IMG/VR virus record: IMGVR_UViG_3300043823_000671
Span: 28,737 to 92,736 of that record
Direction: 5' to 3' (one strand)
DNA: 64,000 nucleotides
Origin: a virus
Under the pieces are notes generated by a model. The model ran no database searches, had not been told where the DNA came from, and was given only the letters and a program-made list of their open reading frames with translations. Position numbers and translations under genes: made by a program. Shown piece by piece: positions 33,486 through 54,833 of the stretch (its first letter is position 1; each line of letters starts with the position of its first letter).

Positions 33486-33683
33486 ATGGATTTGCCCGAA
33501 AACAACGACAGTGACTTTGACCGTGACATAACGGAAAACTTTGGCGAGCGGTTCGTCACACGGGAAATGATTTTCTCGGAAATGCGTGAATCCTTTTCGG
33601 CAATGATGAGTTCGGGTTTTACCGAAACCCAGGCTCTGAAGTTTCTTGCATTTTGTACAATTTATGACGGGGATTCTTTCTAG
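33486..33683 (+). CDS. small acidic protein (65 aa)
   Basis: Leaderless. Asp/Glu-rich start, then an amphipathic segment with REMIFSEMRESFSAMMSSGF. TAGTG overlap couples it to the third WhiB-like gene. No family recognised. Confidence 0.6.
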   Translation: MDLPENNDSDFDRDITENFGERFVTREMIFSEMRESFSAMMSSGFTETQALKFLAFCTIYDGDSF

Positions 33684-35865: not shown

Positions 35866-37587
35866 ATGGAAAAAATGAACGTTATCGATGTTGTGGCAGG
35901 CGTTTCCCTTATTGGGATTGCCACCAACACCACATTGCCAGAAGACGTTCGTAAGAGCGCCGAAGAAATGGTTGCAGATGGTCACACGTCGGCAGACCTC
36001 TTGGCGCTTGCTGGCTCCGACAGCGAAGTATCTCTTATTTTGGTCCCCGCCACCAGCCAAAATGACTCCCCCGACTGGGAGCGTTATTTGGAAAAGGCTG
36101 TTGGTTTTCCGTTCACCATGGCACCTTCCCCCGTTCCTGAGCAAGAGGACACAACGGGACCTGGCGCCGTGCAAGTAAAACTCGACCCCAATACAGTCGC
36201 ATCAATTCTCAATGCTGTACAGGGAGATGATTCATCAGACTCTTCTGATTCTTCAAGTTCGGAAGAAGGGGAATCATCCTCAAGCAGTTCATCCTCCAGC
36301 GATTCCTCTTCTTCCAGCAGTTCTTCTTCCAGCAGTTCTTCTTCCAGCAGTTCTTCGTCAAGCAGTTCATCTTCAAGTAGTTCGTCGTCCAGCAGTTCGT
36401 CCAGCAGTTCGTCAAGCAGTTCGTCAAGCAGTTCAGACGACTCTGGTGTATTCATGATTTCCGATGACAGCAGTTCATCTTCAAGCAGTTCTTCGTCCAG
36501 CAGTTCTTCGTCCAGCAGTTCAGACGACTCTGGCGTATTCATGATTTCCGATGACAGCAGTTCATCTTCAAGCAGTTCGTCTAGTTCAGACGAATCAATT
36601 CTTGGAGAGAATTGGAAAGATGGTCTCGACCCATGGCAAGTAGAAATTGCCGAAGCGTTAGACGACATGGTCGATGAACTGGGTCGCATCCCTTCTGGAG
36701 ATGTCGACTATGTAGACATCTCGCCAAAGTTATCAATGGGCATGACTTGCTCTAACTGCATCGCCCAAGGCGACTCGGGCTGTGACTGGGTTGCGGTTTC
36801 CTGCGCCCCTACAGGTTGGTGCAAGTTGAATCTTGTGCCCGTCCTTATTCGCTCATCAAGCGAAGCAAATTCTTTTTACCAAAAGTCTGCAGGCGAGGAA
36901 AACTCAGAAGATACTTCCGCTGAGGATGACTCTTCGATGGTCCCGACCGAGGGCGACTTCGGTGTAATGATGCCAAAGGACATTGCGAAGGACGGTGATG
37001 CGGGCGCACCCGCCCCGGCACCCGCTGGCTCTAACGCCGGGCTTGCTTTTGATAACGGTCCGACGACTGAGGGCGTTCACCTCGACACCCCGGTTTGGGA
37101 TGACGGGAAAAAGAAGCGCAAGAAGCGAGTAGCCAAGTCTGAGGAAATCCCCGGTACCATCCGCAAGGACGCAGAACAGCGTTACACCCTCGGTCCCTGG
37201 TACGTTCCAAACCGGAGCGACGCACACGGCGAGTGGACTGACCCGCAGGAACTACAGCAGGCTTTGTGGGGATACGTCCGCAATGGCGACCGTGACATCC
37301 GACTCCAGCACAATGTTGACATTGTTGCGGGCGAGTGGCTTGAGGCTTTGACGATGCCTTATGAAGTTGAATTCCCAATGTTGCAAGCGGACAGCGGGCG
37401 AGTGAACAATGTTAAGTTCCCTCCCGGAACCGTTTTCTTGGGAGTCCAGTGGAAGCCGTGGGCTTGGGAACTCGTCAAGGCTGGAGAAATCCGTGGTTTC
37501 TCAATCGGAGGAACTGGGGCGGGTATTGAGGTTGACCTCCCGACTGCGGACGAACAACCAGCAACGTTCCCAACTGTTCAGCAGTAA
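35866..37587 (+). CDS. XkdF-like prohead protease with serine-rich insertion
   Basis: 573 residues. The C-terminal part (about 425-560) matches phage XkdF-type serine proteases: GPWYVPNRSDAHGEWTDPQE, IRLQHNVD (His), GTVFLGVQWKPWAWELVKAG and EIRGFSIGG (Ser). Before it lies a Cys cluster (CSNC...C...C...WCKL) usual in XkdF proteins. Residues about 122-244 are almost pure serine with acidic residues, encoded by a degenerate AGCAGTTCT-type repeat. The protease would mature the prohead; the tract may be scaffold or linker. It is the likely processor of the GHxFHGNQ tags. Confidence 0.85.
   Translation: MEKMNVIDVVAGVSLIGIATNTTLPEDVRKSAEEMVADGHTSADLLALAGSDSEVSLILVPATSQNDSPDWERYLEKAVGFPFTMAPSPVPEQEDTTGPGAVQVKLDPNTVASILNAVQGDDSSDSSDSSSSEEGESSSSSSSSSDSSSSSSSSSSSSSSSSSSSSSSSSSSSSSSSSSSSSSSSSSSSSDDSGVFMISDDSSSSSSSSSSSSSSSSSSDDSGVFMISDDSSSSSSSSSSSDESILGENWKDGLDPWQVEIAEALDDMVDELGRIPSGDVDYVDISPKLSMGMTCSNCIAQGDSGCDWVAVSCAPTGWCKLNLVPVLIRSSSEANSFYQKSAGEENSEDTSAEDDSSMVPTEGDFGVMMPKDIAKDGDAGAPAPAPAGSNAGLAFDNGPTTEGVHLDTPVWDDGKKKRKKRVAKSEEIPGTIRKDAEQRYTLGPWYVPNRSDAHGEWTDPQELQQALWGYVRNGDRDIRLQHNVDIVAGEWLEALTMPYEVEFPMLQADSGRVNNVKFPPGTVFLGVQWKPWAWELVKAGEIRGFSIGGTGAGIEVDLPTADEQPATFPTVQQ
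36226..36597 (+). repeat. serine microsatellite inside the protease gene
   Basis: A run of about 370 bases of (AGCAGTTC)-like units giving poly-Ser. It includes two copies of a DDSGVFMISDDSSSS segment about 90 bases apart (near 36439 and 36529), evidence of slippage or duplication. Confidence 0.85.
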
Positions 37588-37595: not shown

Positions 37596-39074
37596 GTGGC
37601 GCTAACCAATGAAGAACAACTTGAAATAGCGCAGTGGATTGAGGTCGCCAAGGGCGACAAGGCTGGACACCGTTTTCACGGCAACCAGTGGGAAAAGGTC
37701 GGCGCTGATGGCGGTACGGCAGGGACCGCCAGCCACAATGTGAAAACCCCGCACGGGCAGAGCGATGGCGACATCAAGGCGTGGGCTAAGAAAATAGCAA
37801 TTTCCCTAAATGAAGGGAAGCACCCGAATATCAACGGCTCCGACTTGCCGAAGTTGTTTACCGCATTCAAAGAATTGGACAGCGGTAACCCGGATATTTC
37901 AAAGTTACGTATAAATGGAACCGAACTGATGGGCGGACAGGGGAAGGGGCTGTTGCGGTCCCAAATGCCACAAATTCCGCCTTCCGAGCGAGAGGCGTTT
38001 CTCGACTGGGCTAGGGAAGAACACGGCGTCATTATTGAGCGTAAGGATATGGACCCGACGCTACTCAAGCCAATCCAAAGCGAGATTTCAGGGACACGCT
38101 CCGGGTGGCTTTTTACCAAATATGAAAACGGCGGAATCCCGAGAGAGCAAAGAATCCTCGTTTCCAAAGACAACTACATTATCGATGGTCACCACACCTG
38201 GGGCGCTTCAGTGGGTCTGAAGTTCTTGAACAACGACTACAACATCCACGTTTATCAAATGGACCTGAACTGGCGGGACGCCCTAAATATTACGCATGAA
38301 TATGCGGCGAAAATGGGCTACGAAGCCCAGACGCTTGAGGGCAAGAAGGTTGATGGCACAACCAGCAACCTATCCAAAGAGGCTGAGGGGCACGCCTTCC
38401 ACGGCAACCAGCACACGGGCGGGCTCGGGGGCGCCGGTAAGACGGAAACGCCACGTCAGATTGACCCAAACCGCTACGAAGTACCGGAAGACCGCAATGA
38501 ATCGCCAAAGATGGATTTAGGCGGAATTTTTGACTCGGTCAAGGCGGAAGGGGGAGTCACCGCCAGCACGATTGGCGAAGGAATCCCAACTTCTGGGTAT
38601 TTCTGTGCAATGGGCAATCCCCATGCAGACCAAGCCCCGATTTCCATTATGGAGAACGAAGACGACTTTACAAAGTTCACCTCTGACTTCTTACAAAAAA
38701 ACGCAGAACTTTTGGCAGAAAAAGGCAATTTCCTTGGAATTTTCAAAGATGAAGAAACTGGGACTGTTGACTTTGACGTGTCTCAGCACTTCTCAGATTT
38801 GGAAGAAGCCAAGCAAGCGGGCGCTTCAAGGGACCAGAAGTCAATTTGGGATATCGGTAATTCCGACATAATCGACACCGGCGGTTCTGGTAAGATTGAT
38901 AAATCAATTCGTAGGAGTGCATTCATGGCTAAGGCAAAGCAAGAACTGACGTTCGTTCAGACACCTAAGAACCTAAAAGAAATGTCTCGTGCCGAGATTG
39001 AAGATTTTGCCCGCAACCTTTTCAAACAACTTACGAATTCTTCGGACGAAGAGAAGCCGACTCAAGCGGAGTAG
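37596..39074 (+). CDS. tagged head protein: ParB-like domain plus conserved C-terminal domain
   Basis: 492 residues, GTG start. Leader MALTNEEQLEIAQWIEVA runs into tag KGDKAGHRFHGNQW (37650-37691). The first domain has a ParB/sulfiredoxin core with SKDNYIIDGHHTWGASVGLK. A second tag, EGHAFHGNQH (about 38383-38414), precedes a domain with GYFCAMGNPHADQ, FLGIFKDEETGTVDFDVSQH and DQKSIWDI...DTGG. I think that last part occurs in other phage head-linked proteins but cannot name it. Tag-domain-tag-domain as at 3233. Confidence 0.75.
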   Translation: MALTNEEQLEIAQWIEVAKGDKAGHRFHGNQWEKVGADGGTAGTASHNVKTPHGQSDGDIKAWAKKIAISLNEGKHPNINGSDLPKLFTAFKELDSGNPDISKLRINGTELMGGQGKGLLRSQMPQIPPSEREAFLDWAREEHGVIIERKDMDPTLLKPIQSEISGTRSGWLFTKYENGGIPREQRILVSKDNYIIDGHHTWGASVGLKFLNNDYNIHVYQMDLNWRDALNITHEYAAKMGYEAQTLEGKKVDGTTSNLSKEAEGHAFHGNQHTGGLGGAGKTETPRQIDPNRYEVPEDRNESPKMDLGGIFDSVKAEGGVTASTIGEGIPTSGYFCAMGNPHADQAPISIMENEDDFTKFTSDFLQKNAELLAEKGNFLGIFKDEETGTVDFDVSQHFSDLEEAKQAGASRDQKSIWDIGNSDIIDTGGSGKIDKSIRRSAFMAKAKQELTFVQTPKNLKEMSRAEIEDFARNLFKQLTNSSDEEKPTQAE

Positions 39075-39102
39075 AGAAACCGGCATTTTGCAAATCTGAG
39101 GG

Positions 39103-39108
39103 TAAGAT
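39103..39108 (+). promoter_or_regulatory. late-type -10 box (TAAGAT in GGTAAGATTTCT)
   Basis: In the 132-base gap before ATG 39207. The same TAAGATTTCT occurs at 63495. Confidence 0.5.
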
Positions 39109-39206
39109 TTCTGCGGAAGTCGCCCACCCGGAGATTGCAAATGCAAAATTTCAATACCTACGCATTCTCTGGCACTCACTCGTGCACCCACGGGGGTTTT
39201 TAGCAA

Positions 39207-39839
39207 ATGGCTGTAAAAACCTTTGAGCAAATCTACGGCTGGCTAGAACTCGCAAAGGGTGGAGCGGGCTCCGGTCCCCCGGTGGGTCACACTTTTCGGG
39301 GCAATCGCTACACCAGCGGTGTGGGGGCTGGGCGCACACACGATATCCGACCTGGCACCGAAAATTTCCGTTATTCGCAGAACCTAGACTCCGCAAAGGC
39401 GCACGTAATTTCTGCCCAAACAGCAGTAAGGAATGCGGACTTTGGCGAAGCATACCGCCAGTTGAACGAGGGCGCCTACCACTCATCGCAGGCGGCAATG
39501 AAACTACAAGAGCCGGGTGGTTACACGAACAGAAGCCTTGGTAATGAGGCAAAGGGAAACTACGTCCTGTTTCACCACACCGCCAACTTGTGCGAAATCG
39601 CAAACAAGGCAATCCACGATTATGCAAGCGCCTTGAAGGGCGCACAGTCCCAAGAGGAAATCGAATCTGCCCGCTCGGTGGCGGAAAATTCCCGCCTCGT
39701 CGCAGAAGAGAGCATGAAGTCGTGTATGCAACATCTGGTTACGGTTGACCGAATCAGAATCGCCACCAAAGACCCGGCTTTTAGCACGACGACGTTTACG
39801 GCGCCGTCAACGATTCAAGGAGCACCAGTCGTAGCATGA
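39207..39839 (+). CDS. tagged helical head protein (210 aa)
   Basis: Leader AVKTFEQIYGWLELA then a longer tag with GGAGSGPPVGHTFRGNRY (39254-39311), which combines a GxGSG element with the FxGN core. The remainder is a helical bundle (HVISAQTAVRNADFGEAYRQ, SARSVAENSRLVAEESMKSC). No catalytic motif is evident. Overlaps the Dps-like gene. Confidence 0.7.
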   Translation: MAVKTFEQIYGWLELAKGGAGSGPPVGHTFRGNRYTSGVGAGRTHDIRPGTENFRYSQNLDSAKAHVISAQTAVRNADFGEAYRQLNEGAYHSSQAAMKLQEPGGYTNRSLGNEAKGNYVLFHHTANLCEIANKAIHDYASALKGAQSQEEIESARSVAENSRLVAEESMKSCMQHLVTVDRIRIATKDPAFSTTTFTAPSTIQGAPVVA

Positions 39840-40282
39840 CACAACCAACTACCCTCCCAATGGCTCTTGGAAATGCCCTTGCTGACGCAACGGTCATGTA
39901 CCACCGGACACACGGTTTCCACTGGAACGTCACCGGGAAAGACTTTCCCCAGTGGCACGCCAAGTTTGAGGAAATCTACGAGGACGTCCTCGACAGCCTG
40001 GACCCAATGGCTGAGTGCATCCGCAAGTGCAACGGGTATGCGCCGTTTCGCCTGGGCGACCTTTCCGCACGAACAAGCGTGAGCGATAGCCAGCCATCTG
40101 ACTATTCACCCGAAACGCTTGTCCCAGACCTGCTCGCAACAAACGACGCAGTTCTAGTAAGTCTGAACATCGCTTTCCAAATGGCAAGCGCACAGAATCA
40201 GCAAGGGGTTGCCAACTTCCTTGCCGACCGCATCGACCAACACAATAAGTGGCAGTGGCAACTCTCTGCCTCACTGTCATAG
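39836..40282 (+). CDS. Dps/ferritin-like protein
   Basis: 148 residues. YHRTHGFHWNVTGKDFPQWH and FEEIYEDVLDSLDPMAECIR match the Dps signature with the ferroxidase-centre His and acidic residues, and ADRIDQHNKWQWQLSASL matches the C-terminal helix. Dps forms 12-mers that bind iron and shield DNA from oxidative damage. It has no tag. Its place inside the head-gene run suggests virion or packaging use (inference). Confidence 0.85.
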   Translation: MTQPTTLPMALGNALADATVMYHRTHGFHWNVTGKDFPQWHAKFEEIYEDVLDSLDPMAECIRKCNGYAPFRLGDLSARTSVSDSQPSDYSPETLVPDLLATNDAVLVSLNIAFQMASAQNQQGVANFLADRIDQHNKWQWQLSASLS

Positions 40283-40289
40283 GAGAAAC

Positions 40290-41441
40290 ATGAACAACCC
40301 TTTTCTTATCAACAAGAACCACGGCGGTTCGACTGCAAATGAAATCATCGCAATCGCAGACAAGAACGTCGCTATCGCAGATTCACTCTGCGAACAGGCA
40401 AAGCAGTCTGCGACTAATGGCGACTTCAAGACCGCTGGCGACTTCTGCCTAACTGCGGCGGACCGCTACTTTGCCTCGTTCCACTTGTACGAGCAGGCAT
40501 CACGCACGGCGCACATGGACCGTCAACAGTACATCGACTTGTCAAAGGGCGCATTCGACGCTTCCGTCGGAGCCACCGAGCAAGCAAAGGCTTACTACGA
40601 CGCCATCGCTTCAGCAAAGAACCCGACTGTTGCAACAATCCCAGACCGCTATGACTCGACTTTCAAGAAGTCATCTGGCTTTGGCGCAGGCGACCTTTTG
40701 TTCCCGATTCTGGGTGGCGAAGACGTTGTTGCAAAGGCGACAAGCGAGGCTCAGGGCGACGCCTTTGCCGACAACAAAGACTTCGAGAGTGCAATCAATG
40801 CGTATCTAGCCCAGGCGGTAAAGCACGACCAGGCTATCCCCGGCGCAAAGGCTAAGGGGGACACCGACGCTGTTGCTCACCACGTCAACGAGGCACAACG
40901 CCTGCGTTCGAAGGTCAAGGACCTCAAGAGCAAAAAGTTGGCAGAAGGCGACATCGCAAACGAAATCAACAAGTCGGTGACTAGCGGATTCAGTAGCGAC
41001 GCACTTCTCTACCCGTTGACCAAGGAAACCCCGGTCGGTCACGCCTTCCGTGGCAACCAGTACTCAAAGGTCGACTCGGACAACGCACGCCAAATTTCTG
41101 AGCGAGCCTCGGACGCATGGTCAAAAATTGGTACGAGTTCACCCCTGGAGATGGCACGGCAACACGTTAGTTTGGCGAATATGCACAACGCCGAAGCAGA
41201 GCGACTTCGTGCTGAAGGTGGCAAGCAGGACCTAATTGACGCTCACGTAAAAGCGATGAAGGCACACGTAAGCGCCTACAAAAAGTGGGATGCGGTCGCA
41301 AAGCAACCTGCAAACTCGGGCGAATCCAACGACGCAACCAGTAGTGCCTGGAACGCAAGCCAAAAGGCTTCGACCTTGAGCGGTAGCGCATTGTCCGTTA
41401 TCCCAGAAATCAATGGAGCCGGTTCGGGCACAATCGAATAG
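40290..41441 (+). CDS. tagged helical head protein with LLYP motifs
   Basis: 383 residues, AGGAG upstream of ATG 40290. Long helices (ANEIIAIADKNVAIADSLCE). It holds two copies of a (S)GFxxxxLL(Y/F)P motif, GFGAGDLLFPIL and GFSSDALLYPLT, each near a domain boundary, then the tag ETPVGHAFRGNQY (to 41063). No catalytic domain recognised. Confidence 0.7.
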   Translation: MNNPFLINKNHGGSTANEIIAIADKNVAIADSLCEQAKQSATNGDFKTAGDFCLTAADRYFASFHLYEQASRTAHMDRQQYIDLSKGAFDASVGATEQAKAYYDAIASAKNPTVATIPDRYDSTFKKSSGFGAGDLLFPILGGEDVVAKATSEAQGDAFADNKDFESAINAYLAQAVKHDQAIPGAKAKGDTDAVAHHVNEAQRLRSKVKDLKSKKLAEGDIANEINKSVTSGFSSDALLYPLTKETPVGHAFRGNQYSKVDSDNARQISERASDAWSKIGTSSPLEMARQHVSLANMHNAEAERLRAEGGKQDLIDAHVKAMKAHVSAYKKWDAVAKQPANSGESNDATSSAWNASQKASTLSGSALSVIPEINGAGSGTIE

Positions 41442-41469
41442 GCGAACTCCGTTTTACCAAATCCCGGTG

Positions 41470-41475
41470 TACGAT
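41470..41475 (+). promoter_or_regulatory. late-type -10 box (TACGAT in GTGTACGATTTTT)
   Basis: About 29 bases before ATG 41504, with AAAGAAAGGAC as ribosome site. Confidence 0.5.
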
Positions 41476-41503
41476 TTTTCAGGAAAGAAAGGACATTTCC
41501 ATC

Positions 41504-42700
41504 ATGATTCGTGTAGCAAACACAACCCCAGGCATCGTCTCGTTTGAGCAGACGGTTGCAAAGGGCTCAACCGCCCAAATCGCTTCAGCGCAGATTGCCA
41601 AGGCGAGTGCAGAACTGGGTTCCGCCCGTGTCGAAATGGACAATGCCACCTTCCGTCTCCAAAAGGCAGAAGAGTCGATGAAGGCAACCAAGATTGCCTA
41701 CTTTGAGGCAGTCGAAAAGTCCGCCTGGAACAAGGACGAACTGCGTAAGTCGTATAACAACGCCCTCGCCGGTTACCGTGAAGCAGATGCTCGTTTCGCC
41801 AAGGCAAGCGAAGTTTTTACCACCGCCGAATCCGTGTTCAACTCGCTAAACGACTTGGCTAAGGGGAAGACCCCCAAGGCTCTCCGCTCGGAGGCTGATG
41901 CCCACGACAAGAAGACCGAAGAAGCAAAGGCTTCTGGAGACTTTGACGCCGTTCAGCAACACGCCCAAGCAAGCGCTAAGTTGCGTGCTGAGGCGAAGGA
42001 AATGGAAGACGACTCAAACGAAGAGAAGCGTGGTCAAGAAGTTTCAGATGTCGCCAAGCGGGAGTTCTCGGACGCCAAGCGCCAGTCCCTCGCCCAAGAG
42101 GGCAAGGCAATGCCTGACGGCTCCTACCCAATCGAAACCAAGGGAGACCTTGCGAACGCCGTCCAGTCCTTCGGGCGTGCCAAGTCACCCGCTCAAGTAA
42201 AGAGTCACATCATCCGCCAGGCTCAGGCGCTCAACGCCGTAGACCTCTTGCCGGAAGAGTGGATGAAGCCCGCTGTACAAAAGGCTGAAAAGGGCGAATG
42301 GAAAAAGCCGTGGCTAGACGACTCATCGGACGAATCATCGGACGACTCATCGGATGACACTGGCGACGACTCATCCAAGGAAGCACCGGCAAAGACCGTC
42401 GGCAAGGCTCAGGCTTGGCTCGTTATTTGCCCCACCTGTGGCGGAGAAGACGACACCTGCCCGACTTGCGACGGAACCGGTTCTGTCCCCGAAGACCAGT
42501 CAGACGAAACATCTGACACATCAGATGAGATGACTAAGGCAAAGAAGAAGCCAGCAGTCGCTGAGTCCCCCGAGGACGACTCCACGGACGACTCCGAAAT
42601 GGATGACTCGGGTATGGAAGATAGCGATTCTGACGAGGGTTACGTTGCTAAGTCTGCTTTCAGCACAGAGTCTTTGCTCTACCCACACATCTCGAAGTAA
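41504..42700 (+). CDS. scaffold-like acidic head protein with zinc finger and LLYP tail
   Basis: 398 residues. A helical N-terminal region is followed by KREFSDAKRQSLAQEGKAMP and FGRAKSPAQVKSHIIRQAQA, a conserved phage domain (DUF6582-like, from memory), then Asp/Ser-rich tracts and CPTCGGEDDTCPTCDGTG, a DnaJ-like zinc motif. It ends SAFSTESLLYPHISK, the third LLYP motif. Possibly scaffolding or an internal head protein. Confidence 0.7.
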   Translation: MIRVANTTPGIVSFEQTVAKGSTAQIASAQIAKASAELGSARVEMDNATFRLQKAEESMKATKIAYFEAVEKSAWNKDELRKSYNNALAGYREADARFAKASEVFTTAESVFNSLNDLAKGKTPKALRSEADAHDKKTEEAKASGDFDAVQQHAQASAKLRAEAKEMEDDSNEEKRGQEVSDVAKREFSDAKRQSLAQEGKAMPDGSYPIETKGDLANAVQSFGRAKSPAQVKSHIIRQAQALNAVDLLPEEWMKPAVQKAEKGEWKKPWLDDSSDESSDDSSDDTGDDSSKEAPAKTVGKAQAWLVICPTCGGEDDTCPTCDGTGSVPEDQSDETSDTSDEMTKAKKKPAVAESPEDDSTDDSEMDDSGMEDSDSDEGYVAKSAFSTESLLYPHISK

Positions 42701-42718
42701 CAGGGGGCACGTAAGACC

Positions 42719-45313
42719 GTGTCTACCAATGAATCTTCGTTGAGTTCAATTGCCGGATGGGTAACATCATTTTTTAGCAACCGTTCAGAAACGGTCGCTA
42801 AGGGCGACGTGCCGGGGCACGAGTTCCACGGCAATCAATGGAGCAAGGAAGCAGTTGCCCAACTTCGTGAGCGCTCACTCATGCACGCCGATAAGACACG
42901 TCAGGTCAACGCCCCGTATACAGACCCCATGCGAATCACGTGGGACTCGGGCAAGGATGCCCACCAAGTCAACAGTGAAAAGTTAGCGGATATCGCAAAC
43001 AAGATTGAGAACGACCCGTCGAAAACGCTCAACGAGCACCTGGCGGACCTCAAGCAAGAGCACGATGGGCTCAAGCAACAACAGGCTAAAGATTTATTGT
43101 CGAACTACTTCAATCGAAAAAGCCACTTCACCACTGACGCCATTGAGCAGGCTATGGAAGTTATCAAGCCGATTGCCGATAAAGAAAACCTGTCGGTAGA
43201 AAAACAGATTATTCAAAAGGGCGACGTGCCGGGTCACCCCTTCCACGGCAACCAATATCAGACAGTCGAAGCGATGGCTAGTGATATAAAAGCCAAGTAC
43301 CCAAGAATGTCTTCGGTCAGCCGGGGCAAAGACAGGTTGGCTGAGTCCGTCAAAAGGGGAGGGGATAGGTCCATCTTTAACGTTGGCGAAAGTGCTCACC
43401 TCGCCATGGACGCAAATGAATTATCGAAGCAATTCAATAGTCTAAGAAGCAACCACCCGGGCGCAGATAACCCCGACACCGTTTTAGCGTCAAGCCCGTC
43501 CTCAAGTGTAACCATGAATACGATGGATACACTTTTTCGAAGTAGTGAAGCACCAGACTCTCTGATTCAAAATGCTTTAGAAAAATCTTTCAAAGAGTAC
43601 AACGGTAATACCAAATCACTTTTTGACTCGTCAGGGAAAATCCGCCCTGGGCGTATGGATGAAATTAATAAACAATACGCAGACTCGGTAACAGACCTAA
43701 CCCAAAAGTTGACATTGGCTGATTCAGCAAAAACAAAACTTCTATCTGACCCGACAGTCGAAAACGCCACAAGTTTTATTAACGCCGTAAATGATGCGAC
43801 AACTCAAATGTCGGATATGCGTCGTCTTGGGCTTTTCTCTAGCGCCGTAGACCGTTTCGCCGGAGATAAAACGGTTGCGGAAACCAACTACCAGCAAACG
43901 CTATCCCTAGCAAAACAAACATACGGCTTGACTGACGCAAAATCCTTGCTCCCGGCAATTACGGGACTTCAAAAAAATGTAACAGACGCCTACTCTCAAA
44001 TTAATAAAGTGCTAGAGAAAACCGGATTTGACAACCTAACCCCAGAAGTGGTCAAGGGGCTCGACGGGAAATACGCACAAGTGGCTGAGGGGAGTTCGGC
44101 AATCAGTGTGTTGGCTAAATTGCCCAATTTCGATAGAACGACAAGTTACTTTGACTCGACACCAAAATTTGGGTCATCAGGAAAAACCAGCGAAGAAAAT
44201 CAGAAAATTCTCACAGATGTCGTGGATGCAAGTCATAAACTCGCCAATGAAACTGAATCAGGGAAAAACATTGTTAGTGCGTATGCGACACTCAATGATT
44301 TAACGAATGAACTCTCGGCAATAAAAAGCGCCAGTGACCTGGCTCCGACTTTGGGGAAGTGGGCGGGCGAAATCGACAATGCTTACAGAAAAGCACAAAC
44401 GGCTTACAACTCTTCTAATTATGGAACACCAGAAGAAGCGTTGGCTCAAAGTACCATGCGCTTGCTTAGCGACAACAAAGATTCTTTACAGGAACTTGAA
44501 AATAAAATCAACTACGCCAATTCTTATGAAGAGGCAAACAATCTGATGAGCGGAAGCGACTCCCGCCCTTTAGAAGAACGCCTGGCAGACGCAGAGGGTC
44601 TACTTAGTACGATGTCGCCTGCCGCTAGGGGGCACGGTTTCGACGGTAACACATTGAGTTTTGAAAATACTTTCAAGAAAGCGGACGGTACCGAACAGGC
44701 GATACTTCCGAGCGATGCTCAACCATCTAGAATTACCCGTCAAGATTTTACAAACACTTACGACAATCTCCGTAACACGGTGACCGGTTTGAAAGCGGAG
44801 GTTGCATCAAACCGTGCAAGCCAACTCATGGGCGACATACAAAAAATAGACACTGCAAACCCGACGGATGAAGACTTTGCAAAAATCGAAGAAGTGAAAA
44901 ATCTTTTGTCGGAGTCAATAAATTCTTATGGCGACGGATACGATTTGACAAATTCCGCGGACGCAACAAGGTTGCAAGGCGAACTTCCAAAACTGCTGGC
45001 GAGCCACGCCAATTTAGACCTAGTAAAGAACATTGAAGCCAAGGCTTCCGGACCTTATTATTACTCCAAGTTGATGTCAATTGTCAACGGCGGAGGAAAC
45101 AACACCACTTACAAGCCAAGTACTTTGGCAAAAAAAGCGGTTGATGGCTACGACCGCTTGAGAAGTGAACTATTGCCAACCGGTCAAGACGAATCGTCAT
45201 TGAGCAGTAGCGACAAGGCGCTTTACGATTTTTACACCTCCCAGATAAATAGCGTCAATTCGATGGCTGACAAAATTGAACTCGCAAATCAACTCCAAAG
45301 GCACAACCTCTAA
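42719..45313 (+). CDS. large tagged helical head protein (864 aa)
   Basis: GTG start. Leader LSSIAGWVTSFFSNRSETVA, tag 1 KGDVPGHEFHGNQW (42800-42841), tag 2 KGDVPGHPFHGNQY (43217-43258) and a degenerate GHGFDGNT at about 44633. The long remainder is helical and polar (LTKLTLADSAK-type repeats). No catalytic motif seen. DNA from about 43300 to 45200 looks richer in A+T than its neighbours. Likely a structural or injected protein. Confidence 0.65.
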   Translation: MSTNESSLSSIAGWVTSFFSNRSETVAKGDVPGHEFHGNQWSKEAVAQLRERSLMHADKTRQVNAPYTDPMRITWDSGKDAHQVNSEKLADIANKIENDPSKTLNEHLADLKQEHDGLKQQQAKDLLSNYFNRKSHFTTDAIEQAMEVIKPIADKENLSVEKQIIQKGDVPGHPFHGNQYQTVEAMASDIKAKYPRMSSVSRGKDRLAESVKRGGDRSIFNVGESAHLAMDANELSKQFNSLRSNHPGADNPDTVLASSPSSSVTMNTMDTLFRSSEAPDSLIQNALEKSFKEYNGNTKSLFDSSGKIRPGRMDEINKQYADSVTDLTQKLTLADSAKTKLLSDPTVENATSFINAVNDATTQMSDMRRLGLFSSAVDRFAGDKTVAETNYQQTLSLAKQTYGLTDAKSLLPAITGLQKNVTDAYSQINKVLEKTGFDNLTPEVVKGLDGKYAQVAEGSSAISVLAKLPNFDRTTSYFDSTPKFGSSGKTSEENQKILTDVVDASHKLANETESGKNIVSAYATLNDLTNELSAIKSASDLAPTLGKWAGEIDNAYRKAQTAYNSSNYGTPEEALAQSTMRLLSDNKDSLQELENKINYANSYEEANNLMSGSDSRPLEERLADAEGLLSTMSPAARGHGFDGNTLSFENTFKKADGTEQAILPSDAQPSRITRQDFTNTYDNLRNTVTGLKAEVASNRASQLMGDIQKIDTANPTDEDFAKIEEVKNLLSESINSYGDGYDLTNSADATRLQGELPKLLASHANLDLVKNIEAKASGPYYYSKLMSIVNGGGNNTTYKPSTLAKKAVDGYDRLRSELLPTGQDESSLSSSDKALYDFYTSQINSVNSMADKIELANQLQRHNL

Positions 45314-47139
45314 TGTCTAACGTACCCCAATCGCTTATTCGCCTTCTTGAAATCACCAAAGGCGGGAAGGGCTCGGGACGCAAGCCCGGTCACAACTTTG
45401 GTGGTAACCAGTACGTAAAGTACGATGAAAACGGCAACCCCATAGCCACTGACCGGTCACCAAAAAAAACTCCAAGTGTCGATTCACCAACCCAGGAAGA
45501 GCCCAAGCCATTAGTCGAGCCAAAAATCCAAAGGGCTATCGACGCATCTACCGCAATTGCATCAATGATTCACATTCCTGAGGCTCGGAGGGACACATAC
45601 ATCAAAAACCTAACGACGATTCTTACTGACAAAGAAAGTTATGAACTGAATTATTCCCGTCAGAAAGATGTACAAACTGCCGACACTACCAATGGCGCAA
45701 TCCTCGGGATGCTCGGATACACAGCAAAACCAAAAGTTGTTTCGACTGATGAATTCAATAAGATTGACTCAACCTGCTATTACTCGGGTCTTAATTCTGG
45801 AAGCAAGTCTGTGCCAATCCCCGGCAAGATGTCAAACCTCTTGTACGGCGAGACTCCACGGTATGGCGGTCCAATGTTTGGTGCGGCGTTCTACACATCA
45901 GAAAAAGTCGACACTCCAATGTCGTACGCAACGAATCAAGGAAACGAACAAGCCATATTTAGATTTAAGTGGGCTGACCCTTCAAACGTTTACAACGAAA
46001 ATACAGGAACCCTTACAAGCACCACTGCCTTCACTGACGTCGTATTGCCGTCTTCGAACAAAACCATTTGGGACGCTAACGGTCTGACCGATATTATGAA
46101 GGAGAACGGTTACAGCGATAGGGAAATTAGCCAGATATCCATAGCATTTTCGGACTCTTCAATGGCAAAGAGCATCACGCCAGCCCTCGCTGGCTATGAC
46201 GGATATTACGCAGGAAGACAGAACTACATGATGGGCTTGAACCGTGGTGCGATGATATTCCCAGATACGTTCATCCGTGTCCAGGCGAGCGACAACGCAA
46301 CCGTTAGAAACGCCATCAGCAATTATGACTTGGGTAGCGCACGGGGGCTGACGGAAGAGACCGTCCCGCAGGACAAGGTGCTGACCACGAGCAAATCTTA
46401 CGAGCCAAGTGAGGTTTTGGAAAAAGGCGATGTAGTAGGTCACGTTTTTCACGGCAACCAATGGCAAAACGGTTTCGGCGGGGGCTCTAGTAAAAGCGCA
46501 ATTTTCCGCTATTCACGAGTTGTTGCCCACCAAATGTATGTTCGTGCCACAACGAATGAGCCCGACATCACCGCACACTTGTTCAAGGTTGCAAACTCGA
46601 CAGGTGGTACGCCCGTCAAGCCGGAGTTCAGAATCAAGGCAGAGGCTTCTCTATCTCGCAAGATTCGTAGCGACGCACAGGATTTGATGGGCGTTCCCGG
46701 AGAAACACCACGAAGCGCTATTGAGAAAGCGGGCGCCGATATCGGAGACAGCCTGCGCTACACAATTTCTTATCCCGACGCCAAGTTTGGTGCTGGCGTG
46801 TCGGAGACCCTCAAGCAAATGCAAGATACTTTTGGGTACGTCCCTCTGAAAATCAAAAATTATTTCAATGACGACCCCGGGAACTCATATCGTGGAATCA
46901 ACTGCGTTTTCAAAGACCCAAAAACAAGCCAGTTGTTCGAGTTGCAGTTCCACACACCTTCGTCTAGCGCAATGGTTGAAGAGGTCCACGGTTTATACGA
47001 AAAGTACCGTGTGTTAGACAAGTCTTCGGACGAGTACGAGGCTGGTCAGCAACAAATGCGCTCGCTATGGGGCACGGTTCCAATCCCACCTGGCGCAGAA
47101 GGCATCGGCGCCCATTCGGTCAAGAAGCAACTTGACTAG
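45313..47139 (+). CDS. tagged effector: ADP-ribosyltransferase-like plus RelA/SpoT-like domains
   Basis: 608 residues. Leader VPQSLIRLLEIT, tag 1 with GGKGSGRKPGHNFGGNQY (45358-45414). Domain 1 has CYYSGLNSGSKSVPIPG, YGGPMFGAAFYTSEKVDTPM and EQAIFRFKWAD, an arrangement like ADP-ribosyltransferase folds (tentative). Tag 2 KGDVVGHVFHGNQW (46423-46464). Domain 2 resembles the RelA/SpoT-like toxin domain: SLSRKIRSDAQDLMG, DSLRYTISYPD, NSYRGINCVF, FELQFHTPSS and EEVHGLYEKYR. Such domains make alarmones or modify host nucleotides. Roles inferred. Confidence 0.78.
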   Translation: MSNVPQSLIRLLEITKGGKGSGRKPGHNFGGNQYVKYDENGNPIATDRSPKKTPSVDSPTQEEPKPLVEPKIQRAIDASTAIASMIHIPEARRDTYIKNLTTILTDKESYELNYSRQKDVQTADTTNGAILGMLGYTAKPKVVSTDEFNKIDSTCYYSGLNSGSKSVPIPGKMSNLLYGETPRYGGPMFGAAFYTSEKVDTPMSYATNQGNEQAIFRFKWADPSNVYNENTGTLTSTTAFTDVVLPSSNKTIWDANGLTDIMKENGYSDREISQISIAFSDSSMAKSITPALAGYDGYYAGRQNYMMGLNRGAMIFPDTFIRVQASDNATVRNAISNYDLGSARGLTEETVPQDKVLTTSKSYEPSEVLEKGDVVGHVFHGNQWQNGFGGGSSKSAIFRYSRVVAHQMYVRATTNEPDITAHLFKVANSTGGTPVKPEFRIKAEASLSRKIRSDAQDLMGVPGETPRSAIEKAGADIGDSLRYTISYPDAKFGAGVSETLKQMQDTFGYVPLKIKNYFNDDPGNSYRGINCVFKDPKTSQLFELQFHTPSSSAMVEEVHGLYEKYRVLDKSSDEYEAGQQQMRSLWGTVPIPPGAEGIGAHSVKKQLD

Positions 47140-47160
47140 AGTACGGTACGGTGCTATCAT
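47132..47160 (+). promoter_or_regulatory. promoter overlapping the end of the effector gene
   Basis: TTGACT, 17-base spacer, TATCAT, then AGGAAAG and ATG 47188. Confidence 0.6.
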
Positions 47161-47187
47161 GTATGTCTTGGTTAGGAAAGTTGCATC

Positions 47188-47466
47188 ATGAGCACGGATA
47201 GTGTCTTTTTCTACAGCATTGCACAACCAGACGCAGGAGTAATCGGAAGTGCGACTCTTGAAGATGGGAAGTTCGGCGCCGAAACGGGTGTAGCAAGTCT
47301 TATGATTGAAAGCGTACGCAAGCGTTTTTATTTAGAAGATGGCGACAGCACGGCTATTACTGACCAAAAGGTTTTTGACACCCTCAGTGATAACTGGGTT
47401 AGCGGTGTTTTTTTCACGCTTCCCAAAGAGTTCACCGGGGCTCAGATAAAGGAATACGTGGGATGA
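47188..47466 (+). CDS. hypothetical protein (92 aa)
   Basis: AGGAAAG upstream. Residues FFYSIAQPDAGVIGSATLED and FGAETGVASLMIESVRKRFY give strands then helix. No family recognised. ATGA-coupled to the next gene, in the head module. Confidence 0.65.
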   Translation: MSTDSVFFYSIAQPDAGVIGSATLEDGKFGAETGVASLMIESVRKRFYLEDGDSTAITDQKVFDTLSDNWVSGVFFTLPKEFTGAQIKEYVG

Positions 47467-47678
47467 GCGACGCAAAAGATTATTACTATTATCAACTGAC
47501 TTCTTTGACGACCGGGGAGCCGTCGCTGTACTACCGCCTGGCTACCAACTTCACCAACCCAGAGGTTTGGAGCGGTGTGGCAAAAAGTTGGGTCCCAAGC
47601 GAATCTTTGATGGACAAGTTGATGAGTGGGGACCCGGCGGTCGACGAACTCGATTCTGACCCCACCAAGAACCTCTAA
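47463..47678 (+). CDS. hypothetical protein (71 aa)
   Basis: ATGA-coupled. KDYYYYQLTSLTTGEPSLYY is Tyr-rich and strand-like, with an acidic tail. Precedes the MuF-like gene. Confidence 0.6.
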   Translation: MSDAKDYYYYQLTSLTTGEPSLYYRLATNFTNPEVWSGVAKSWVPSESLMDKLMSGDPAVDELDSDPTKNL

Positions 47679-47743
47679 GTTTCTCGGTTTCTGTATTGTT
47701 GGGATAAAGTATGGGGTAGTCACGCCCCGATTTAAAGGTCCCT

Positions 47744-49186
47744 ATGAGCGATACATTCACGGAAATCAGCACGTGGCTAACTGACGCTCGTAATATCCAG
47801 GTGCACAAGGCTGGTAACGCAAGTGCGCTTATTGACTGGTACAACGCCGGGGCGGATGGTCAAATCAACTGGGGCTCGGAAGGCGACTTTGACGCCTGCG
47901 TATCAATTGCCTCAAAGTACATGGATGACGACCAGGCAAAAGGCTTCTGCCAAAATCGCCACATCGATGCGACCGGGGAGCCAGCAGGCAAGGCTCCGGG
48001 CGAGGTAAAAAAGGGCAAGATTCTCAACAGCGTCATTGCCGGTGTAGTCGCCTCACATAACCTAAATATGAGTTCAGCAATGGTTGGCGGTATTGCGGGA
48101 ATAGCGACAGCAATCGCCCTTGCAAGCAAGAGTCTCAATGGCTCAGTCAACCCAACAACCGTCCAAAGTGCCGTGCAGAATGCGGTGGGCGCTTCGGTAA
48201 CAATCGACTCAAGTTCCCTGGCAGATGCCCTGTACAACTTGTATAGCGACGCTGGAAACGCCGGAATATCCGTCGGGGCGAGCCAAACAGGTTTCACCAA
48301 CGTAGATGGAGCCAAGGCTCTGAATAGCCTTATGCAGAATAGAGCCGATATCCTCAAGGGGCTCGACAAAACGACACTCTCCCTAATCTCAGACTCGATA
48401 AGCCAAGGGCTAATCAACGGTCAGGATTTGGGTGATATTGGAACGCAGATTAATGCCCTGGTCAACAACCCGACAAGGCTCGACATGATTCTCCTTACCG
48501 AGACAAGCCGTGCTTACAATGCGGGTCTTATCGGCGCATACCAGCAGGCTGGCATTCAGCAGTTCAACTGGATTTGCACCGAAAGCGCTTGTCAGCCCTG
48601 CGAAGAAATGCAGGGCGTCCACGATATTGACGAACAGGAGCCACCGCTCCACCCAAACTGTCAATGCGAAATCTCGCCGGTAATGGCTGAGGATTTGACT
48701 AAAGATGCGCTGGGGTCATTTACGCCCAAGGCTTCAATCTCCGCCCAAAGCGCCCTGGAGTCAGCGACAAAGGGGTACCAACTCCGGAACTTAGGCAAGT
48801 GGGAATCTGCAACAATCGCCCATCAGTTCGCCGCTAAAAAGTACCGTGAGGCGTCTGCCCACGAGCGTTCAGCACACGCACCGAACAGCCAAGATAACGC
48901 CCGAATTCTGGACGAAAAGGCTGGCGAGCAGGACCAACTAGCGAATATGTCACAACTCATGTCGGTAGCCCCAACGCACTCACCGGCTGAAGTATCTAAG
49001 TACGAAAATCCAAAGTCGAAGCCCGGGTCACAAGACTGGGGATATCTCGACCCGGCAGAAAATGTTCTACTGCCGGACACCGTCGCCTCGTTTGAAACGG
49101 AAGATGAGTCAAGCAGTTCCGAGGGGAACATAAAGCCAATCAGCGTTGCCTACATCCAAGGGCAACAAGACGCCACAAAGAAGTGA
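47744..49186 (+). CDS. MuF-like head morphogenesis protein
   Basis: 480 residues, AAAGGT upstream. The N terminus (TFTEISTWLTDARNIQVHKAG) resembles the tag-protein leader though the tag itself is absent. TETSRAYNAGLIGAYQQAGI, QFNWICTESACQPCEEMQGV and PPLHPNCQCEISPV are the classic MuF/SPP1 gp7 C-terminal motif. Minor head proteins of this family are present in few copies at the portal and often carry toxin domains. The C-terminal 170 residues are helical and disordered. Confidence 0.85.
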   Translation: MSDTFTEISTWLTDARNIQVHKAGNASALIDWYNAGADGQINWGSEGDFDACVSIASKYMDDDQAKGFCQNRHIDATGEPAGKAPGEVKKGKILNSVIAGVVASHNLNMSSAMVGGIAGIATAIALASKSLNGSVNPTTVQSAVQNAVGASVTIDSSSLADALYNLYSDAGNAGISVGASQTGFTNVDGAKALNSLMQNRADILKGLDKTTLSLISDSISQGLINGQDLGDIGTQINALVNNPTRLDMILLTETSRAYNAGLIGAYQQAGIQQFNWICTESACQPCEEMQGVHDIDEQEPPLHPNCQCEISPVMAEDLTKDALGSFTPKASISAQSALESATKGYQLRNLGKWESATIAHQFAAKKYREASAHERSAHAPNSQDNARILDEKAGEQDQLANMSQLMSVAPTHSPAEVSKYENPKSKPGSQDWGYLDPAENVLLPDTVASFETEDESSSSEGNIKPISVAYIQGQQDATKK

Positions 49187-50901
49187 GCCTAGAAATGGGC
49201 GATATTGAAAAGGGCATTTTCCAGCCCAACTTCTACACGTTCACCAATACAGACATAGTTCGCCGGGAGCCACTGGGCGGGGATTACAAGGGAAACCAAA
49301 ATGCCGGTTTTACCTACGTCCAATTCAAAGACGGCTCACGGGGTATAGAAAAGCAAATGAAAGACTGGTACGGGAATAAAACCGGTCGCCTTTACAAAGC
49401 CGAGGTTCTTGCGACGCAAGAATACTTAGCATCACGTGTCGGTGAGGTAATGAATGCCCCGATTCGGGATTGCCTTTTTACCTCAGATGACGCCAAGACA
49501 ATCATCATGCCTTACGTTTTGGGCAAGTCGGGGGAGGAACTTGGCGGGGAGGGTGTCCCGGAAAACGAGCAAGGCGTAGCCCTGAATCTCTTCGATTACT
49601 TGACAGCCAACTCCGACCGTAGACCCAAGAATCTCTTGTTCACCGATGACAATCGAATCGTCGGAATCGACCACGCTCTTTGTAACTTCAGACCCCGTAC
49701 GCCAAGTCCAGAACTTGTTTCGCAACTTTGGAATTTTGGGGTAAACGCCGAGAGCCTCAATATTTTGAAGCCAAAGTTGGAGAACCTCGTCACCATTTTT
49801 GGGACGTTGGGGATGCTGGATAAGTTCCAAAACATGATTGGCAACTTAGACCTTCTTATAAAAGACCTAGAAGAAATCGCCCAGTATGCGACAATCACCA
49901 AGAACGATGACTTCGAATCCCGCCTGGGGCGATGCTACGAATTGGCTGGTTCCTATGCGCCAACGCAACCTGGCTCAACACTTATCCACGGGAGCATCCA
50001 GGGGTTTGGATATCCACGGATTGGTCACGCCTGGGTTCAGTTGAAAGACGGCTCTGTATGGGAGCCGACCACGGACACGGTCTACCCCGAAAAAACCTTT
50101 CGCTCTTATTTCAATGCGGAAATAACCAAGGCTTATGACCCGGCATCAGTGGCTAAAGGGGACGTAGCCGGACACGAATTCCATGGGAACCAGTACACCG
50201 GCGGGTTTGTGGCGCTCACATCAACGACGATTGATAAAAAACTGGGGAATAAGGAAATCCTGGGCGGGATACAAAACACAGGTTTTACCAAAGTCAGACT
50301 TTCCGATGGCTCAATCGGCATTATCAAGCATGGGATGAAGGAAGAAGAAGCAAACCGTGAAGTGCTTTCAGCGGATATCGCCCGTGCGATTGATGCGCCA
50401 ATCAGGGATGCTGTAATCGTAAAGCAAAGTCCCACGACGAATCGATGCGACGTGTTGCACCCTTTTGTTGCGGGAGAAACGCTGGCTCAAACATTTGGGA
50501 GCGAAGATATCGGCGCCGAAGAAACGCTGGGCTTAGTAAAAAATGAACTTGGTCCACAGGCGCTCAAGGATTTGCAGGGCATAGATTTTGCGGACTCCGT
50601 AATGGGTAACTCTGATGTCCACCTTGGCAACATCATGCAGTATGAAGAGAACGGCGTTACCCGGTTGGTTGGGATTGACCATGGACTATCAATCATGTAC
50701 CCCGAGTCGCCGGAAGAACTTGTTTCAAAAGCAGAAGCGCTCGGCATTGACAGCAAAACTATCAACGAGTACAACACCCACATGGAAGATGTGAAGAAGA
50801 CGACGAACGTAATACCCGCCCTTCGTGATGACTTCTCTTACGTCATGGAAAATTGGTCACAGTTTTATGACCTATGGAAGCGCAAAAACGCTCAAAAATA
50901 A
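49183..50901 (+). CDS. tagged effector: two PI3/4-kinase-like domains with a papain-like domain between
   Basis: 572 residues, GTG start overlapping the MuF-like stop. Kinase-like domain 1 (about 40-215): LATQEYLASRVGEVMNAPIR, NLFDYLTANSDRRPKNLLF (D..N) and RIVGIDHALC. A papain-like part follows: GRCYELAGSY, then RIGHAWVQLKDGSVWEP. Tag KGDVAGHEFHGNQY (50155-50196). Kinase-like domain 2 (about 345-560): LSADIARAIDAPIRDAVIV, DSVMGNSDVHLGNIMQ and RLVGIDHGL. The two kinase parts are duplicates with PI3/4K/HipA-like catalytic D..N and IDH motifs. Function in the host unknown. Confidence 0.75.
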   Translation: MSLEMGDIEKGIFQPNFYTFTNTDIVRREPLGGDYKGNQNAGFTYVQFKDGSRGIEKQMKDWYGNKTGRLYKAEVLATQEYLASRVGEVMNAPIRDCLFTSDDAKTIIMPYVLGKSGEELGGEGVPENEQGVALNLFDYLTANSDRRPKNLLFTDDNRIVGIDHALCNFRPRTPSPELVSQLWNFGVNAESLNILKPKLENLVTIFGTLGMLDKFQNMIGNLDLLIKDLEEIAQYATITKNDDFESRLGRCYELAGSYAPTQPGSTLIHGSIQGFGYPRIGHAWVQLKDGSVWEPTTDTVYPEKTFRSYFNAEITKAYDPASVAKGDVAGHEFHGNQYTGGFVALTSTTIDKKLGNKEILGGIQNTGFTKVRLSDGSIGIIKHGMKEEEANREVLSADIARAIDAPIRDAVIVKQSPTTNRCDVLHPFVAGETLAQTFGSEDIGAEETLGLVKNELGPQALKDLQGIDFADSVMGNSDVHLGNIMQYEENGVTRLVGIDHGLSIMYPESPEELVSKAEALGIDSKTINEYNTHMEDVKKTTNVIPALRDDFSYVMENWSQFYDLWKRKNAQK

Positions 50902-54089: not shown

Positions 54090-54833
54090 GTGGCACGAAA
54101 GTTAGTGCGACTCAACATCAAGGAGACCAGTGGCGTAGACCGCCCTGCACACCTTCACGATGGATGGGTAGTTATGAAGTCTGCCTCCGCCTCCGATGTA
54201 ACTGCCGTACTTGACGCAATCCGCCCTGACCAAACTGGTGAGGGCGACCCCTCTGAGGCACCCGTCTCAGAGGTTTCCAAGACGGAAGGAATTTCCATGC
54301 CTGACACGGCTCTCGACGCAACTGAAGTTGTCGTCATCCCAGAGACCGCTACCGAGGACGAGATTTTGAAGGCTATGCCCGCTGTTGTCAAGAAGATGCT
54401 TGACGAGAGCAAGGCTACGGCTGAATCGGCTCTTCGTAAGGCGCAGGCTTCAGAGCAAGCCCTCATTGCCGAGCGTAACGCTCGTGCAGATGAGGCTTCA
54501 GTTCTGAAGGCTTCGCAGTGGTCGCACTTGAACATTGACCCGACCATCGTTGGTCCTAGCCTTCGTCAACTTTCCGAAGTTGACAACGCTTTGGCTACCG
54601 AGGTCGTAAAGGCTTTGGACTCGGCTAACGCCCAACTTGAGGCAAACACCGTGTTCACTGAAATCGGTACGGACGCCACGGTTTCCGCTGACGACGCTTT
54701 CTCCAAGATGGAATCGCTTGCCAAGGCTTCTGTAGCCAACGGCACGTCGCCCTCTTTTGAGTCGGCTCTGATGTCGGTCGCTCAGTCGAACCCGGACCTC
54801 TACACCGCTTACCTTAGCGAGAAGGCTCGATAA
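54090..54833 (+). CDS. capsid scaffold-like protein
   Basis: 247 residues, GTG start with AAGGAG. The N terminus LNIKETSGVDRPAHLHDGWV, VMKSA resembles a capsid-linked phage leader (EVSxVDxPA type). The rest is helical and Ala/Glu-rich (ESKATAESALRKAQASEQAL, AERNARADEA), as expected for scaffolding. Directly upstream of decoration and major capsid genes. Confidence 0.7.
   Translation: MARKLVRLNIKETSGVDRPAHLHDGWVVMKSASASDVTAVLDAIRPDQTGEGDPSEAPVSEVSKTEGISMPDTALDATEVVVIPETATEDEILKAMPAVVKKMLDESKATAESALRKAQASEQALIAERNARADEASVLKASQWSHLNIDPTIVGPSLRQLSEVDNALATEVVKALDSANAQLEANTVFTEIGTDATVSADDAFSKMESLAKASVANGTSPSFESALMSVAQSNPDLYTAYLSEKAR

Follow-up and report, generated by a model that had tools for sequence, protein, structure and literature searches.

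A short peptide, [VIL]xKGDxxGHxFHGNQ[YW] (the GH tag), recurs in seven open reading frames (ORFs) of a 64,000-nt stretch of viral DNA, i.e. positions 28,737 to 92,736 of the IMG/VR record IMGVR_UViG_3300043823_000671 (the whole stretch is called the window below). The analysis suggests that the tag, together with the leader peptides that often precede it, forms a modular label for proteins carried in the phage head, of the same kind as the capsid-targeting sequence (CTS) of phage T4, with the additional property that the tag is repeated inside polypeptides. Judged from the sequences, this reading appears somewhat probable; that the tag is also a site of cleavage is a tentative addition.

The original prediction had described copies of the motif in seven genes, and both the sites and the gene count were confirmed. 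A regular expression search of the window translations retrieved 11 copies in seven ORFs, all on the plus strand: 3278-3319 and 3818-3859 in ORF 3233, 37650-37691 and 38373-38414 in ORF 37596, 39270-39311 (a GNR variant) in ORF 39207, 41022-41063 in the ORF most likely starting at 40290, 42800-42841 and 43217-43258 in ORF 42719, 45373-45414 and 46423-46464 in ORF 45313, and 50155-50196 in ORF 49183. A looser expression added two off-motif matches, at 33563 and 44630. The strict DNA pattern for GH-x-F-x-G-N-Q has 10 matches in the window, on the plus strand only, compared with a mean of 0.00 over 100 shuffles that preserve dinucleotides. In the whole record (92,736 bp) there are 13 strict matches, all on the plus strand, and none with the reversed pattern. 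A chance origin of the copies is excluded by the shuffles and the reversed control.

The pattern search beyond the window that the original prediction had proposed returned at least 118 tag-bearing stretches in IMG/VR. Together with the window, these yielded 425 tags, or 327 once ORFs duplicated between contigs had been removed, and a reversed-motif control gave 0. The logo of 257 unique tags reads [VIL]-x-K-G-D-x-x-G-H-x-F-[HR]-G-N-Q-[YW]-T-x-G-x-G-G, with a long conserved core at positions −7 to +9. The regular expression fixed G0, G5 and N6 and permitted alternatives at H, F and Q. The main residue is kept at these free sites in 256/257 (H), 256/257 (F) and 253/257 (Q) tags, and the K, G and D of positions −5 to −3 in 219, 240 and 213 of the 257, but the loci had been fetched with the stricter pattern KGD..GH.FHGNQ, so that these figures exaggerate the conservation by an unknown margin. 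One variant has K-G-G-x-G-S-G instead of KGD, e.g. KGGPGSGAQAGHPFEGNQ. A single tag is present in 157 ORFs, and two, three, four, five and seven tags in 44, 13, 4, 4 and 1 ORFs, respectively.

Codon identity between tag pairs at six conserved residues is 0.42-0.53, compared with 0.47-0.59 expected from the codon usage of the same ORFs (eight records; a broader expression was used here, which counts 12 instead of 11 window tags). Codon sharing is under the expectation in six of the eight records and exceeds it by 0.03 in the window record and in G007. Because it is close to the codon-usage expectation, the copies are not recent DNA duplicates, and the comparison indicates that the conserved entity is the peptide, not the DNA. 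In L093, two ORFs each have two tags 22 residues apart, one pair with the leader-like ALTEILKGD in between.

Outside the viral records, a slightly broader pattern found one matching stretch among the GTDB contigs, on a contig of 4 kb assigned to an Acidobacteriia metagenome-assembled genome, and there is thus little sign of a host-encoded counterpart. Against named phages, tblastn with a 39-residue leader-tag query and megablast with 17.9 kb gave no match, and a composite 46-residue query gave one match with an E value of 5, which was not trusted. Among the open-access papers searched, none describes the GH tag, GVKGMKWG or DUF7211 (see below).

The tagged genes accompany the head genes. From the portal gene (34068..35708, plus strand; Portal_Mu 3.9e-35, phrog_113 7.4e-89), which is untagged, through ORF 49183, all genes are on a single strand, with intergenic gaps of −4 to 277 bases. 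A prohead protease gene follows the portal gene (35866..37587, plus strand) and encodes an S78_2/XkdF-like domain at residues 433-554 (PF14550 4.5e-10). A scaffold-like protein, its role suggested by gene position (54090..54833, plus strand; 3.6e-44 to phrog_13547, which has no assigned function), and the major capsid protein (MCP; 55336..56331, plus strand; phrog_1005 2.4e-97) complete the block, of which the MCP gene is the last. For comparison, we used six of the eight records having both portal and MCP (the window's own and five others, some of them close relatives; G001 and G026 were left out, their tag positions being incomplete). Of the 95 tags in these six, 78 are located between the two genes, and the first tag past the protease domain is 0.5-1.9 kb from the mapped start or end of that domain. 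Each of the 11 records with a strong portal match (partly close relatives) has the S78_2 domain, and so do 16 of 26 long contigs overall (≥34 kb, sampled from ~92 distinct contigs), 13 of them above the cut-off; some of the 10 contigs without a match may be fragments.

Arthrobacter phage Kovu has relatives of the window's portal (51% identity), protease domain (67%), MCP (51%) and scaffold-like protein (29%; gp27, encoded upstream of the Kovu MCP). The window protease has a very long Ser/Asp-rich insert. PHROGs with the labels 'RNA ligase' and 'DNA methyltransferase' match its S78_2 domain, and the annotation of Kovu gp20, which has the domain at 67%, is 'RNA ligase'. These labels do not apply to the S78_2 domain and may stem from other parts of the proteins.

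The tag had been predicted to follow a helical leader with an (I)xxW(L/I/V) pattern. Leaders are indeed mostly N-terminal, but this pattern is only one of several leader types that recur among the N-terminal tags, and in the window it precedes only tags of ORFs 37596, 39207 and 42719. For 140 N-terminal tags, the distance of the GH from the chosen start is 10-35 residues in 121 cases, <10 in 14 and >35 in five. Leader expressions, which were written after the data had been viewed, match 93 of these 140 tags, compared with 26 of 154 internal tags. A few proteins of ~180-240 residues have the leader at the N terminus and the tag at the C terminus. Leader and tag are separable, since ORF 41504 ends with the leader-like AFSTESLLYPHISK and has no tag. 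Because leaders are mostly N-terminal, tags recur internally and the two are separable, we propose that the leader targets the protein and that the tag is processed or docked.

Models and alignments support the view that the tag is a mobile linker module outside any single fold. AlphaFold models of ORFs 45313 and 3233, each from an 11-sequence alignment, have mean predicted local distance difference test (pLDDT) values of 70.7 and 69.2. The ORF 45313 model has a leader helix at residues 4-15 and two folded domains, one between and one after the tags. The tags lie in stretches with pLDDT <50 in both models (residues 15-41 and 354-395 in ORF 45313, 1-39 and 191-215 in ORF 3233), and these low values may partly reflect the shallow alignments. 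Tag-masked BLAST between tagged ORFs, with matches of >90% identity or <60 residues left out, revealed that 742 of 795 matches cross no tag. Among matches with >60 residues free upstream in both partners, 40% start ≤30 residues from a tag of the query, compared with 16% in the null (n = 364), and 40% of match ends are near tags, compared with 17% (n = 399); the BLAST pairs are not independent. The low-confidence linkers and the homology breaks thus speak against the tag being part of one globular fold, which had been named as an outcome unfavourable to the original prediction.

Modules after tags have a median length of 174.5 residues (5-95%: 74-457). After removal of duplicated ORFs, 357 modules reach a length of 60 residues or more and form 140 single-linkage families. 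Of these, 98 are singletons and 42 have at least two members; 20 of the latter follow tags in single-tag and multi-tag ORFs alike. The alarmone-synthetase-like domain of the window is also found after tags in L071, L097, L146, L073, L075 and L080, and the ~85-residue N-terminal domain of the window's MuF protein is found before tags in L040, L146, L073, L071, L090, L005 and L059. A ~65-residue domain starting 'MPDGSYPI...' occurs in 41504-42700, L005, L049, L239, L219 and L231, accompanied by a GH tag, KGMKWG or no tag. For GSGNFGHAGRPG, a further idea that was set aside, the query matched mainly via its other half; no distribution was drawn and a resemblance is all that is noted.

The attached domains named in the original prediction fared unequally, the RelA/SpoT-like domain having strong, the kinase-like good and the zincin weak support, whereas the ParB-like assignment had no named ParB match and the ADP-ribosyltransferase-like and papain-like assignments no significant Pfam match. 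The last domain of ORF 45313 matches 8vx3 by profile (E 2.8e-28) and by fold (Z 21.2, root-mean-square deviation 3.3, 199 residues aligned) and is predicted to be small alarmone synthetase-like; long effector-family models match it as well, through their C-terminal parts and with scores well under the cut-offs. In Streptococcus phage IPP46, a Mu_F protein resembles it in its C-terminal part (31%, E 4e-19), the similarity beginning just past the window tag. No confirmed relatives of ORF 45313 were obtained in a direct scan, but relatives did occur among the collected tag loci. The kinase-like domain of ORF 49183 matches PF00454 (3.4e-09), and the first of its two kinase-like domains resembles the C-terminal domain of the minor capsid protein of Micromonospora pMLP1 (PF06152 plus PI3_PI4_kinase). 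For ORF 37596, profile and homology searches gave no named ParB match; its phrog_2859 domain (a family of unknown function) is 28% identical to F116 gp59, a protein of 2130 residues whose relatives are named 'structural protein' or 'PLxRFG domain-containing' in some records. Homologues of three tagged window domains are found in named phages, in minor-capsid or structural proteins. The idea that F116 gp59 is a polyvalent protein was given up, as no Pfam match was found for it. The second domain of ORF 3233 reaches only Z 8.0 with zincins. Neither the ADP-ribosyltransferase-like part of ORF 45313 nor the papain-like part of ORF 3233 has a significant Pfam match, and the fold-search lists for both ORFs were filled by the proteins' other domain. 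ADP-ribosyltransferase domains are present in tagged ORFs of other records.

The tag is spread over several head-gene lineages. The window's MCP family is present in 13 of the 26 long records, and six records without it were examined in part or whole. The G020 portal (642 residues) is tagged at residue 522; in the same record, a Mu_F protein has three tags and an intein-like region (below the cut-off), and a four-tag protein matches ART-PolyVal (3.6e-18) and, below the cut-off, ParB_N and M91. A G012 protein consists of a leader, a tag at residue 23, an ADP-ribosyltransferase domain at 39-111 (1.2e-13) and Mu_F at 307-411 (3e-14), and its gene adjoins a protease-like ORF. A head-region protein of 1508 residues in G002 (L131:10024-14547) has a GNAT domain at 220-321, a tag at 365, topoisomerase IB at 444-638 (6e-26), Acb1 at 736-881 (1.9e-38) and a weak Mu_F match, and is a candidate for a virion-delivered counter-defence protein. 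The window's MCP family is not matched in any of these three records. In G014, two ORFs are tagged. In G015, tags stand behind leaders such as MINKIIDKLELAKG, and near-identical leaders also precede GGEGSGRYPAGSG in place of the GH tag; the record further encodes proteins with KGMRWG and with SSGNYGHAGVPG. In L137 (1096-1578 and 3777-4247), near-identical leaders of the GH type are followed by a GGEGSGRYPAGSGKNP-type sequence and no GH tag, as though one tag could replace the other. A tagged Mu_F protein in L129 (1437-5198, minus strand) has a C-terminal intein-splicing/HINT-like region (6.2e-6, below the curated cut-off), possibly a second processing route.

Three known systems were compared with the tagged proteins. 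The T4 CTS is described in the part of PMC5694885 consulted as an N-terminal propeptide of 10-20 residues. It resembles the present system, as do the N-terminal propeptides on ejection proteins of phiKZ and SPN3US, in that a short N-terminal peptide is common to differing proteins (in T4 the internal proteins and Alt), in that the phage has a prohead protease and in that the cargo is destined for ejection (PMC5694885, same part; for the tagged proteins this is read from the genes alone). The 140 N-terminal tags are indeed common to unrelated putative cargo, and a prohead protease is encoded near the cargo genes in the window and in the 11 strong-portal records. In contrast to the CTS, the GH tag recurs between domains inside polypeptides and is separable from the leader.

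MuF effectors include RelA-like and ADP-ribosyltransferase domains, and their head loading is proposed by the authors in the part of PMC5576092 consulted. The homologue of the window's RelA/SpoT-like domain on the IPP46 Mu_F protein is a direct likeness. However, effectors there are attached to the MuF domain, whereas the tagged ORFs of the window use leader and tag and have no PF04233 match, which is found in the untagged ORF 47744. Mu_F and tag are combined in one protein in G020 and G012. Polyvalent proteins unite disparate enzymatic domains in one polypeptide, are encoded near virion genes and are predicted to be injected, as far as the consulted part of PMC5512222 goes. The ART-PolyVal domain of G020 is a further likeness, and at least two disparate domains per polypeptide were found in G002 and, counting the sub-cut-off matches, in G020, while each tagged ORF of the window has one identified domain plus unknown domains. 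The difference is that the same part of PMC5512222 mentions no short common junction motif, and 'linker' occurs 0 times in its main text.

An analogue exists in named phages. A KGMKWG query gave 935 places in 245 records of INPHARED (E up to 10), counts that include duplicate RefSeq records and possibly some chance matches. The motif is Pfam PF23847 (DUF7211), with proteins in actinophages and in Lactococcus phage 1706. Like the GH tag, it combines a short N-terminal leader, [LI]xH[YHF]G[VI], with a Gly/aromatic tag that is usually N-terminal and sometimes present twice per protein. A genome has several such genes, which in ReqiPepy6 and Gordon are close to terminase and portal, and the sequences after the tag vary. 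ReqiPepy6 has eight copies, seven of them between terminase and portal, and Gordon has five, four of them in this interval. Lactococcus phage 1706 has two KGMKWG tags in gp07, a protein encoded beside the terminase whose annotation is 'structural protein'; the structural proteins of this phage were reportedly identified by mass spectrometry. ReqiPepy6 gp019 matches phrog_35934, 'virion structural protein'. In 229 ORFs (duplicated ORFs removed), the first KGMKWG tag is a median of 17 residues from the first start codon, and 211 have a single tag. The sequence is unrelated to the GH tag, and proteins mostly have one copy. In three ORFs, a ~65-85-residue domain stands before the KGMKWG tag; it is also found with the GH tag, upstream of it in four ORFs and downstream in two. 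The 25-position DUF7211 profile had no match in the scanned window ORFs and none above the cut-off across 26 GH-tag records in a record-level scan, which scores KGMRWG below the cut-off; a separate untagged G015 protein, the one with KGMRWG, reaches 30.2 bits (cut-off 27).

These observations are compatible with the following scheme, in which the genes between prohead protease and MCP would be exchangeable effectors. An N-terminal helix (e.g. GFTTNELLYPLTK, NPFSTDALLKSLSNYPV, LDSEIIxWVxxA or DFRSILxIL) would dock the protein to the prohead scaffold, protease or inner shell, much as the T4 CTS does. The unstructured junction tag, [VIL]xKGDxxGHxFHGNQ[YW]TxGxGG, would then be recognised by a head component; in the simplest case the prohead protease would cut the polyprotein there into single-domain effectors, and alternatively the tag would serve as a docking peptide for each domain. 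The products, with alarmone-synthetase-like, ADP-ribosyltransferase, kinase-like, metallopeptidase-like and topoisomerase domains and domains directed against cyclic-oligonucleotide-based anti-phage signalling (CBASS), would be ejected with the DNA and act early in infection.

Several points weigh against the scheme, besides the reservations given above with the leader, pLDDT and BLAST figures. The predicted head association holds in part: tags cluster with head genes and also occur on portal and MuF proteins, but 17 of the 95 are not between portal and MCP, and many of these 17 belong to a second cluster at a distance of tens of kb. The sole tagged ORF of G016 appears, from a reading of the sequence, to lie among glycosyltransferase-like genes outside the head block. 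No leader helix is predicted in the ORF 3233 model. Prohead proteases are widespread in tailed phages, and their co-occurrence with the tag is weak evidence. Kovu has no tag within the 32 kb examined, and 30 of its proteins share no short motif common to several; a motif search gave only the ParB-like pair gp1/gp5 and short matches at chance level. Four further portal relatives (L120-L123) have no tag in the parts examined. Because the examined parts of Kovu and these relatives have no tag, the tag system is accessory and not part of core assembly. About 17 conserved residues are long for a protease site. Finally, we infer virion location, ejection and cleavage of the tagged proteins from the genes alone. 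The predicted capsid-targeting or processing signal is thus upheld by the head context and the mobile linker, while its protease-site version is weakened: since Kovu has a protease domain at 67% identity and no tag in the 32 kb examined, a plain site of this protease would require extra specificity.

The same observation favours a rather unlikely but serious alternative, namely that the tag does no more than bind a structural head protein (portal, scaffold or capsid interior), with a copy on each domain to raise avidity, and that whole proteins are packaged without proteolysis. The long conserved core and the tags on portal and MuF proteins would suit such docking, as would the fact that a similar protease domain works in Kovu, where no tag was found. 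However, up to seven copies per ORF together with N-terminal leaders fit one targeting signal and several processing sites better. A role in the infected cell instead of the head, as a localisation signal after injection or a motif for a host protease, would agree with the attached domains, which are predicted to work in the host cell. We consider it improbable, as the tag is found on portal and MuF proteins and clusters with head genes, and the one match in GTDB does not point to a counterpart encoded by hosts. We disfavour, as the least probable of all, a recombination-prone linker that serves domain swaps and has no packaging role. It would account for the enrichment of homology breaks at tags and for identical modules in differing positions and with differing partners, but codon sharing close to codon usage leaves little DNA homology for recombination, and it is the peptide that is strongly conserved (see the H, F and Q counts and their fetch bias above).

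A head-cargo label would have wider implications. To our knowledge, head-carried proteins and their loading are known for few model phages only. If the tag predicts head cargo, such cargo could be listed from genomes alone, and many unknown ORFs would become candidate early effectors, counter-defence proteins included. A testable packaging signal would be available in culturable phages (KGMKWG in Arthrobacter, Gordonia, Streptomyces and Lactococcus phages), and the exchange of effector domains with delivery intact would be explained. Tailed phages may even use a common peptide address code for virion cargo, in which several unrelated tags do the same job, a possibility that is speculative and that we would sooner doubt than accept. 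Its tags would be GHxFHGNQ, KGMKWG and perhaps GGxGSGRYPxGSG and SSGNYGHAGVPG, which co-occur in G015, where two of the four candidates stand behind near-identical leaders. The leader would bring any domain to the prohead, where the tag would be cut or held, and effector polyproteins, Acb1 included, could be rearranged and delivered at infection.

The genes of the window, all on the plus strand, are organised as follows. ORF 3233 (3233..4843) encodes a leader, a tag, a ~150-residue domain, a second tag and a zincin-like domain with HELGH. In ORF 37596 (37596..39074), leader ALTNEEQLEIAQWIEVA and a tag are followed by the phrog_2859-type domain (2.5e-38), the second tag and an unknown domain. 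ORF 39207 (39207..39839) has a leader, a GGAGSG-type tag and, as read from its sequence, a helical domain. The protein encoded at 40290..41441 has an internal leader, GFSSDALLYPLTK, before its tag, and the untagged one at 41504..42700 has, on the same kind of reading, the 'MPDGSYPI' domain in addition to its leader-like C terminus. The two-tag protein at 42719..45313 has 864 residues and a degenerate GHGFDGN at 44630. ORF 45313 (45313..47139) encodes the leader helix, a tag, a domain at ~70-350, the second tag and the alarmone-synthetase-like domain at ~393-605. The untagged MuF minor head protein (47744..49186; PF04233 5.1e-09) starts with a ~85-residue phrog_6439 domain, and in ORF 49183 (49183..50901) a HipA/PI3-PI4-kinase-like domain, a tag and the second kinase-like domain follow each other. 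Within the tagged operon, a gene for a Dps/ferritin-like protein (39836..40282; PF00210 1.4e-16) has neither leader nor tag, and its product may protect DNA or be cargo in its own right. A Nol-like carbamoyltransferase is encoded at 59829-61565, downstream of the head block.

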